Positions 7,444 to 56,212 of a stretch of 64,000 nt of DNA are shown piece after piece. Both the position numbers and the translations under genes were made by a program. Each line of letters starts with the position of its first letter. The first letter of the stretch is position 1. Source of the stretch: Blattabacterium cuenoti. Lineage in GTDB: Bacteria; Bacteroidota; Bacteroidia; Flavobacteriales; Blattabacteriaceae. The notes under the pieces are model-generated. The model was not told the origin of the DNA and did no database searches. It was given only the letters and a program-made list of their open reading frames with translations. The stretch covers positions 372,001-436,000 of the forward strand of contig NZ_CP059205.1 of assembly GCF_014251995.1 (NCBI RefSeq), given 5' to 3'.

Positions 7444-9156
7444 TTAATAGACATCTTTCAAATATTTCCTATTTTTTTTCATCTTTTCTATGAAAGATTT
7501 TGGATCGCATTTTCCTACTTCATCTATTAAACGACAAATCATTTTTTCAACGTCCATACTCATAGGTGATTTTTTACCACAAATATAAATATACGCTCCA
7601 TTTTTTATCCATGAAAAAAAATCAATTCGATTTTCCCATATTTTATCTTGTACATATATTTTGTTCTTTTGATCTCTTGAAAAAGAAAGACTTAAACGAT
7701 TAATAATTCCTTTTTCTTTCCAGTTTTGAATTTCTTTTTGGTACAAAAAATCTGAATTAAAATGTTGTCCTCCAAAAAATAACCAATTTTTTCCTCTAGC
7801 TTTCGTAGCTTCTCTTTCATATAAAAATGAACGAAAAGGCGCTATTCCAGTTCCTGTTCCAATTAAAATTATATTGATATCCGAATTTTTCGGTAATTTA
7901 AATAATTGGTTTTTGCAAACAAAAAAAGATATTTGATCTTCATTTTTTATTTTAGATAAATAATCAGAACAGTGACCATATATATTTTTCCCATTTAGTT
8001 GAAAATTGTATCTAGATACAGTGATATGTATTTCATTTATATGAAATTTAGAATAAGAAGATATAGAGTATAACCTTGGTTTTATTGGTTCTAATATTTC
8101 TATCAAATCCTGTAAAAAAAATTCTTTTTTTACAGGAAATTCTTTTAAAAGATCAATAAGTTTCCATTTACGATTAACAGGAATATTTTTTTTCTCTTTT
8201 AAAAAAAGAGAATATTTTTTTAAAAAATTGTTCGATAAACAAAGTATGTTCAATTCTTTTTTAAAAAGATTCCATATTTTATCATTAATTTTTTTTTCTT
8301 TCAAATCATTTTTTTCTCTATTTGTAAAATATTTTACAATATCATTTATTTCATTTGAAGGGTTTTCAGGAAATATTCCTATGGAATCACCTGGACTATA
8401 TTTAATTTTGTCATTTACAGAAATTTCTATATGATGAATTTCTTTATAAGATCCATTTTCTTCTTTTTTACTTAAAAGTATATTATTTTTAACTATTCCA
8501 CATATCTTATTGTCTTTTATTTTTTCTACATTTCTTTCTTTTTTTATATTTTTCTGAAAAAAATATAAAATTTCTAAAAACCATTTATTTGCTTTTTCTT
8601 CATAATCAACATCACATTTATATAATGGAATAATTCTTTTTGCCCCCATATTATATAAACATTTATCTACATCATATCCAGCTTTACAAAAATTAAGATA
8701 AGATTTATCTCCTAACGCTAAAACACTATATTTCAAATTTTTTAGAATAATCTTTTTTTCATTTTCGTGGATAAAATGAAAAAAAGATTTTGCGGAAGTA
8801 GGTGGATCTCCTTCTCCATACGTACTAATTATTATTAATAAATAACTTTCTTTTTTCAAATCTTGCAGATAATATTTATCTAAACTTATTAAGTTTGATT
8901 TGATTTTTTCACCTTTAAATCTTTTATGAAAATCAAAAGCTAAACTTTTAGAATTTCCTGTCTCTGTTCCATAAACTATAGTGATTTTTTCTTTTTTATT
9001 TAATATTTTATCATCTAAAAATTCAGGAAAAGAACATTTTTTAGTTTTTTTTAGGGATAAAAATCCAGATAAATATCCATACATCCAAATAATTTCTTCT
9101 TGAGAAGAATTTTTTATTAACGTTAAAAACATTCTTTTGTTTAACTTAGATAACAT
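7444..9156 (-). CDS. cysJ: Sulfite reductase (NADPH) flavoprotein alpha subunit
   Basis: Moves electrons from NADPH through FAD and FMN to the sulfite reductase hemoprotein, giving sulfide for cysteine. After an N-terminal segment, the flavodoxin domain binds FMN (TVYGTETGNSKSLA near residues 60-73; STYGEGDPP). The FAD-binding domain has RLYSISS and the NADPH domain has IGTGTGIAPFRSFLYE. The 570-residue length suits CysJ. The ATG at 9154-9156 is used. It lies downstream of cysE-cysK, whose products use sulfide, with a 278-nt gap. The partner cysI is not in the window. A perfect 13-bp inverted repeat is embedded in the coding region at 8108-8137. Confidence 0.9.
   Translation of the reverse strand: MLSKLNKRMFLTLIKNSSQEEIIWMYGYLSGFLSLKKTKKCSFPEFLDDKILNKKEKITIVYGTETGNSKSLAFDFHKRFKGEKIKSNLISLDKYYLQDLKKESYLLIIISTYGEGDPPTSAKSFFHFIHENEKKIILKNLKYSVLALGDKSYLNFCKAGYDVDKCLYNMGAKRIIPLYKCDVDYEEKANKWFLEILYFFQKNIKKERNVEKIKDNKICGIVKNNILLSKKEENGSYKEIHHIEISVNDKIKYSPGDSIGIFPENPSNEINDIVKYFTNREKNDLKEKKINDKIWNLFKKELNILCLSNNFLKKYSLFLKEKKNIPVNRKWKLIDLLKEFPVKKEFFLQDLIEILEPIKPRLYSISSYSKFHINEIHITVSRYNFQLNGKNIYGHCSDYLSKIKNEDQISFFVCKNQLFKLPKNSDINIILIGTGTGIAPFRSFLYEREATKARGKNWLFFGGQHFNSDFLYQKEIQNWKEKGIINRLSLSFSRDQKNKIYVQDKIWENRIDFFSWIKNGAYIYICGKKSPMSMDVEKMICRLIDEVGKCDPKSFIEKMKKNRKYLKDVY
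8108..8137. repeat. Perfect inverted repeat inside cysJ
   Basis: Arms TCCTGTAAAAAAA (8108-8120) and its exact complement (8125-8137) flank a 4-nt loop, giving a 13-bp hairpin in the coding sequence. A second, 9-bp stem lies about 60 nt further on, near 8192-8212. Codons for the FPVKKEFFLQD stretch encode the first one. Confidence 0.6.
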
Positions 9157-54646: not shown

Positions 54647-56056
54647 CTATATAATATTATGAATAGATTTTCCATAAGCACTGGACACAGATTCTAATAT
54701 TGATTCGCTCAATGAAGGATGAGGGTGTACACTACTCATAATTTCATAGCTAGTAGCTTCTAATTTCCTTGCAACTACAACTTCAGAAATTAAATCTGTA
54801 ACACTATTTCCAATCATGTGACAACCCAACCATTCATCATATTTATTATCAAAAATAACTTTAATAAATCCTTCTGTATTTTCATCAGCAATAGATCTTC
54901 CAAGAGAACTAAATGGAAACTTAGCTACTTTTATTTTGAATCCTCTTTCTTTAGATTCTTTCTCGGTATATCCTACTGAAGATATTTCAGGAAAAGAATA
55001 AACACATTTTGGAATATTATTATAATCTATTTTTTGACAATTTAATCCTTTTATATTTTCAACACAATTTATTGCTTCATGTGAAGCTACATGGGCTAGA
55101 GAAGGAGTTTTAATAACATCTCCAATAGCATAATATCCATTTATATTTGTACGATAATTTTCATCTACTTGAATAAATCCTTTTTCAATTTGTATTCCTA
55201 TTTCTTCTAATCCAATAGATTGAATATTTGGAACAATTCCAATAGAACAAAGGACTATATCTGCTGTTAAAGTAACAGAACTTTTATCCCTCAAAGACTC
55301 AATTTCGATCGAAATTGAGTCTTTTTCTTGAAACACTTTATTTATGGAGTAATATGTGTAAATTTTAATTCCCATTTTTTCAAAAGAAAATTTTAAATGA
55401 TCAGATATTTCATGATCTCCACTTGGAAAAAGTTTTTCACAAATTTCTATTATTATAACATCTGTTCCCATAGAATGATAAAAATAAGCAAATTCTAACC
55501 CTATAGATCCAGAACCTATAATAATCATTCTCTTTGGTAAAGAAGTTAATGAAAGAGCTTCTTTATATGTTACAATTTTTTTACCATCATATTGAAATTT
55601 ATTTTCAATCTTAGGAATTGCCCCAGTAGATATAATAATATTCGGAGAAGAATATTCTTTCATACTTTTTCCATCTTTAAAAACCTCAACTTTTTTTCCT
55701 TTTTTTAATATTGCATTTCCATAAATTACATGAATTCCATTTTTTTTCATTAAAAACGAAATTCCTTTTCTCATTTTCTCTACTATATCTTTACTTTTAG
55801 TAACAATTTTATGATAATCTATTTCAATTTGATTACTTTTTATTCCAAATAATTTTCCATGTTTTTTTATATAATGTAAAATTTTTGCACTGTTTAAAAG
55901 GGATTTTGTAGGAATACACCCCAAATTTAAACAAACACCACCAAGATTATTTTTTTCAATTATAGCTGTTTTCATTCCTAATTGTGCTGCACGTATAGAA
56001 GCCACGTATCCCCCTGGTCCACTTCCTAAAATAATGATATCAAAATCTGTTGTCAT
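54647..56056 (-). CDS. lpdA: Dihydrolipoyl dehydrogenase (E3)
   Basis: Reoxidises lipoamide of 2-oxoacid dehydrogenase complexes with NAD+. The FAD motif IIILGSGPGGYVASIRAAQ, the redox-active pair GGVCLNLGCIPTKS near residues 40-53, the NAD motif IIGSGSIGLEFAYF and the catalytic histidine in SSVHPHPSLSE are intact. The ATG ending at 56056 gives MTTDFDIII; a TTG at 56062 would add two residues. A perfect 32-bp palindrome lies within the coding sequence at 55293-55324. Confidence 0.96.
   Translation of the reverse strand: MTTDFDIIILGSGPGGYVASIRAAQLGMKTAIIEKNNLGGVCLNLGCIPTKSLLNSAKILHYIKKHGKLFGIKSNQIEIDYHKIVTKSKDIVEKMRKGISFLMKKNGIHVIYGNAILKKGKKVEVFKDGKSMKEYSSPNIIISTGAIPKIENKFQYDGKKIVTYKEALSLTSLPKRMIIIGSGSIGLEFAYFYHSMGTDVIIIEICEKLFPSGDHEISDHLKFSFEKMGIKIYTYYSINKVFQEKDSISIEIESLRDKSSVTLTADIVLCSIGIVPNIQSIGLEEIGIQIEKGFIQVDENYRTNINGYYAIGDVIKTPSLAHVASHEAINCVENIKGLNCQKIDYNNIPKCVYSFPEISSVGYTEKESKERGFKIKVAKFPFSSLGRSIADENTEGFIKVIFDNKYDEWLGCHMIGNSVTDLISEVVVARKLEATSYEIMSSVHPHPSLSESILESVSSAYGKSIHNII
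55293..55324. repeat. Perfect 32-bp palindrome inside lpdA
   Basis: Sixteen nucleotides (AAAGACTCAATTTCGA) are followed immediately by their exact reverse complement, centred on GATC between 55308 and 55309. On the coding strand it spells KDSISIEIES and can fold into a hairpin of up to 14 bp with a 4-nt loop. The one-off symmetry breaks at the next base on each side. Confidence 0.9.
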
Positions 56057-56212
56057 ACGCAAACAAAATATATATAATAAATAAATTTACAGATTTTTCT
56101 TATCAAGAAATATTTTTATAAAAAACAATAAAAAAAGTTCAATTTTTCTATTTTATATCAGAAAAATTTTAAATAAATTTGTATTTATACTAAAACAATG
56201 ATATTACAAATT

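Follow-up and report, generated by a model that had tools for sequence, protein, structure and literature searches.

The palindrome and its host gene

The window analysed here, a 64-kb stretch of the genome of Blattabacterium cuenoti (G000), carries lpdA, the gene for dihydrolipoyl dehydrogenase (E3), and a perfect palindrome within it. The features of the locus are as follows.

54647–56062, minus strand: lpdA, dihydrolipoyl dehydrogenase (E3), an intact 471-aa ORF, identified from the ORF, TIGR01350 and the fold model
55293–55324, no strand: perfect 32-bp palindrome, covering lpdA codons 247–256 plus the first two bases of 257
55309–55324, minus strand: coding-strand 5' arm, AAAGACTCAATTTCGA, less relative-like and probably the rewritten copy
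55293–55308, minus strand: coding-strand 3' arm, TCGAAATTGAGTCTTT (GAAATTAAATCT in the relatives), more relative-like and probably the template

The identity of E3 is evident from a full-length match to TIGR01350 over residues 7–468 (542 bits against a cut-off of 408.8), and the AlphaFold2 model of the enzyme has a pLDDT of 85.8. The peptide KDSISIEIES, encoded by the palindrome, forms in this model a turn and the strand 250–256, flanked by the strands 238–245 and 262–267. The palindrome site is among the most variable stretches of E3 within the genus, with a mean entropy of 1.91 as compared to 0.89 and a smoothed rank of 9 out of 471. Two genomes of the genus, G043 and G047, are without a close DNA match to this lpdA (their best E values of 2.6e-6 and 2.4e-13 fall at other places), and this copy of E3 may have been lost or replaced in them.

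The sequence AAAGACTCAATTTCGATCGAAATTGAGTCTTT at 55293–55324 is, both by eye and by script, its own exact reverse complement over 32 bp, with a spacer of 0 and CGATCG at its centre, which confirms the perfect palindrome that an earlier note on this DNA had described inside lpdA. The peptide given in that note is also correct, the palindrome reading KDSISIEIES in the frame of ORF 54647–56062(−) and ending two bases into the Leu codon that follows. The runner-up perfect palindrome in the window measures 22 bp. Spacerless arms of at least 16 have a chance expectation of about 5e-4 per 64 kb, and Markov simulations (orders 1–4, 60 each) never exceeded an arm of 14, in agreement with the earlier view that such symmetry is very unlikely to arise by chance in 64 kb. 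A search of the genome for the palindrome, akin to the 16-mer search that had been proposed as a check, recorded no second copy at up to three mismatches in G000 (628,453 bp, one contig). Elsewhere in G000, a spacerless palindrome of 36 bp (at 205875) exceeds it in length, and hairpins with small spacers and arms of 19–23 are also present, so that the lpdA palindrome is not the only one of its class.

Within the palindrome, wobble bases face wobble bases. Out of 559,872 encodings of KDSISIEIES, 144 are palindromic, and their total probability under the codon usage of the genome is 1.3%, which suggests that much of the symmetry already exists at the amino-acid level. The actual encoding is nevertheless an unlikely one, with rare codons placed opposite each other: GAC (10%) with GAG (9%), and TCG (3%) with ATC (6%). 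Five of the 16 base pairs are G-C in a genome of 25% GC. Independent drift at this GC content would favour A:T pairs, whereas copying of one arm directly explains the matched rare codons; they would also be expected under selection for a strong stem.

Comparison with relatives and alternative readings

The close relatives identified by a collection search are B. cuenoti strains. A close lpdA is present in 47 of the 49 genomes of the genus, its own included, and in the homologous arms of the 46 relatives so compared 2–9 of the 16 positions pair. Divergent and unpaired sequence in sister strains is what the earlier note had named as telling against its proposal, and the symmetry is kept in none of the 46. 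The palindrome is absent from the 48 other Blattabacterium genomes (26-bp core, up to three mismatches), and a search of a second genome collection gave no further genome with the exact 32-mer. The lpdA palindrome is real, non-random and lineage-specific.

Aligned with G017, G011, G021 and G059, all close relatives, the 5' arm shows no gap, and the sequence near the palindrome differs in net length by a few codons only, the columns of the arms being present in the orthologues. Both the gap-free alignment and the small net change favour the rewriting of one arm in place. A 32-bp block insertion was also considered and rejected, as the alignment with the relatives does not show one. The inverted-duplication scar comes closest among the three roles suggested earlier, although the site looks like one rewritten arm rather than an inserted block of 16 bp.

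Rickettsia palindromic elements form repeated families of in-frame insertions within genes. The lpdA palindrome resembles them in being palindromic, in frame within a conserved gene and carried by an intracellular bacterium, and a mobile element of this type inserted in frame might be considered on these grounds. It is, however, extremely improbable, as the palindrome is single-copy at up to three mismatches, is absent from the 48 relatives, is not an insertion in the lpdA alignment and has no phage match over it; the Rickettsia elements are repeated insertion families, whereas this is a single-copy non-insertion. A fold-back artefact of assembly or sequencing is very unlikely too. Palindromes did hamper sequencing and assembly in Blochmannia (PMC3017870), but the sequences on either side of the lpdA palindrome run on within a single intact ORF of 471 aa, which speaks against a chimeric assembly junction, and inverted repeats in coding sequence are seen again in three further genomes of the genus.

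The RNA of the palindrome segment is predicted to form a strong hairpin on either strand, folding into a 14-bp stem with a z of −4.4 on the coding strand. This fold, together with the proportion of G-C pairs, would be consistent with a lineage-specific functional element that adjusts E3 expression, either as a hairpin in the mRNA or as a palindromic site for protein binding. Such an element is, however, unlikely, as the stem is kept in no relative, occurs once in the genome and lies in the middle of the gene. No terminator-like site, by the definition of the scan, was detected between 54400 and 56300, and an RNA family search of the palindrome gave only sub-threshold matches. The T-rich tract that follows the palindrome on the plus strand is antisense to lpdA. 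Absence from the relatives and the variability of the site speak against its conservation as an mRNA hairpin or as a binding site, and the corresponding roles put forward in the earlier note are left unsupported by an unconserved, single-copy palindrome that matches no terminator. A genus-conserved hairpin looks different, as evident from the one that lies 5' of an E1-beta-like gene and whose outer stem occurs in 30 of 49 genomes.

This conserved hairpin belongs to the 36-bp perfect intergenic palindrome of G000, which lies outside the window at G000:C1:205875-205910 (L115:5875-5910), between the stop of an upstream ORF and a transketolase-like gene of the pyruvate dehydrogenase E1-beta type. 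The outer stem of this palindrome, CGGAAAAG...CTTTTCCG, occurs once per genome where present, and the inner bases vary and are often still paired. It is a candidate terminator or regulatory hairpin.

Inverted repeats inside genes of the genus

Perfect inverted repeats with arms of at least 14 and spacers of up to 20, lying inside conserved genes, were counted in G000, G021 and G017, the latter two over their first 600 kb only. The counts were 19, 30 and 21, respectively, as compared to 3.5, 6.0 and 2.4 in codon shuffles and to 2, 6 and 3 mirror repeats. A per-gene recount gave 19, 32 and 21 against 4.2, 7.2 and 4.0 in synonymous-codon shuffles. With a simpler ORF definition, 21, 29 and 22 repeats were recorded, and 19 in 400 kb of the distant G010, against 2, 6, 6 and 9 mirror repeats, so the contrast of inverted with mirror repeats is weaker in G010. 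These data show that coding inverted repeats exceed the codon-shuffle and mirror controls, with about 20–30 per Blattabacterium genome. Mirror repeats also occur fairly often in G010 and, in G017, outside genes, which suggests that low-complexity sequence may account for a part of the excess.

The GC content of the arms is higher in the coding repeats than in chance hairpins, being 0.16 against 0.07 in G000, 0.12 against 0.05 in G021 and, only slightly, 0.17 against 0.14 in G017. The free-living relative G027 (30% GC) has 26 such repeats in the 400 kb to which this less AT-rich control was limited, and 0 of them fall within ORFs; many are terminator-like in appearance.

These counts bear on chance as the origin of the lpdA palindrome, that is, on the possibility that perfect arms arose by point mutation, the stretch being variable, AT-rich and beta-strand-coding. 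The 1.3% of synonymous encodings that are palindromic favours this origin, and shuffles still yield about one repeat with arms of at least 16 per genome in conserved genes. Chance is improbable, however, as the expectation for spacerless arms of this length is only 5e-4 per window, 9–13 coding repeats with arms of at least 16 are present per genome against about 1 in the shuffles, and the codon shuffles of G000 contain zero repeats with an arm GC of at least 0.2.

Other coding hairpins of G000 were also recorded. A perfect hairpin with 17-nt arms and a 7-nt spacer lies inside a conserved ORF at 8749–8789 of the window (G000:380749-380789); one orthologue matches its arms at 16/17 and 9/17, the latter with a 3-base gap. 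Two further hairpins in conserved ORFs, at G000:C1:106752-106799 and G000:C1:582528-582575, have perfect arms of 23 and 22 nt with spacers of 2 and 4, respectively, and exceed the lpdA palindrome in length.

Template switching as a probable origin

The lpdA palindrome is probably a template-switch scar specific to this lineage, and probably a neutral one, in a part of E3 that tolerates change. Most likely, the nascent strand would have met an imperfect inverted repeat during replication and there folded back on itself or changed template; perfect arms would have resulted from the copying of one into the other, with the coding-strand 3' arm as the probable template (a quasipalindrome or template-switch mutation). 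The scar may have persisted since the stretch is variable and KDSISIEIES is still predicted to form a turn and a beta strand there. The palindrome agrees with a template-switch product in being a perfect repeat with a short spacer and in being derived in one lineage.

The suggested direction of copying follows from the arms themselves. The mean identity of the 5' arm to eight close relatives is 6.9/16, as compared to 9.5/16 among those relatives, and the corresponding values for the 3' arm are 10.25/16 and 11.5/16. Against the relatives' own baseline, the 5' arm thus appears to have diverged more than the 3' arm, which is suggestive only, the asymmetry being small and the 5' arm being the more variable place in any case. 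The nearest relative compared has a DNA identity of 85%, so the comparison includes no before-and-after pair. Genome-wide, the one-sidedness of orthologue differences in the repeats does not exceed that in windows drawn at random from the same genes, so we infer the template-switch mechanism, as we do the event at lpdA, its direction and its neutrality. The pairing fraction of orthologues (0.70–0.74) was dropped as evidence, as an identity of 84% by itself would lead one to expect about this value.

Template switching is the likeliest cause of the coding inverted repeats in Blattabacterium. RecA and MutS are present. The models for SbcD and XseA (exonuclease VII) are silent in 19 of the 19 genus genomes tested and also in the control G027; loss of SbcD or exonuclease VII was rejected as a cause, as both are equally silent in G027, which has zero coding hairpins. 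The mutS frames of G017 and G007 contain internal TAA stops, two at G017:C1:484304-486709 and one at G007:C2:161481-163889, for which decaying mismatch repair and sequence errors are both possible.

Taken alone, the lpdA palindrome is an ordinary tolerated mutational scar, and the genus-wide pattern matters more. Mutational products of this kind, to which the lpdA palindrome would add a member of an already known class, appear common in Blattabacterium. It is tentatively proposed, on less than even expectation, that such mutagenesis is frequent enough to shape Blattabacterium proteins, dozens of genes per genome carrying stretches in which the complement of a neighbouring stretch dictates the residues. 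If so, a part of the protein divergence among cockroach symbionts would consist of multi-residue palindromic jumps rather than point mutations, with lpdA as a clear illustration. Should template switching be responsible, models based on point mutation could mistake the resulting multi-residue protein change for positive selection, and Blattabacterium, with its many sequenced genomes, would lend itself well to measuring it.

In the literature library searched, no paper joins Blattabacterium with 'template switch'. A published survey (PMC10434271) gives this same genus as an outlier, among endosymbiont genomes with a very high frequency of inverted repeats; it differs in counting short repeats genome-wide, apparently without singling out long perfect within-gene repeats or applying codon-preserving controls.

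Template switching at imperfect inverted repeats is known to perfect their arms in E. coli, as seen with lacZ reporters (PMC7202029), and quasipalindrome template switching in S. cerevisiae also includes protein-coding genes (PMC8604942). The lpdA palindrome is similar to these in its perfect arms in a coding gene, its restriction to one lineage and its change of several adjacent residues. Those events were, however, seen directly or between a parent node and a strain, whereas that of lpdA is deduced with the nearest relative at 85% identity. Perfect stems of RNA hairpins have likewise been proposed to arise in one step by template switching (PMC8794818), a case that differs in concerning RNA genes and ancestral reconstructions. 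Coding palindromes also occur in mitochondrial genes of Nematomorpha, for which template switching has been proposed as the origin in a paper that mentions the loss of repeat identity of Rickettsia palindromic elements as well (PMC6649704). The Nematomorpha palindromes reach 284 bp over conserved residues, whereas that of lpdA measures 32 bp in a variable stretch; the two systems are alike in having many perfect repeats in the protein genes of a reduced genome, gained and lost between species and with no known function.
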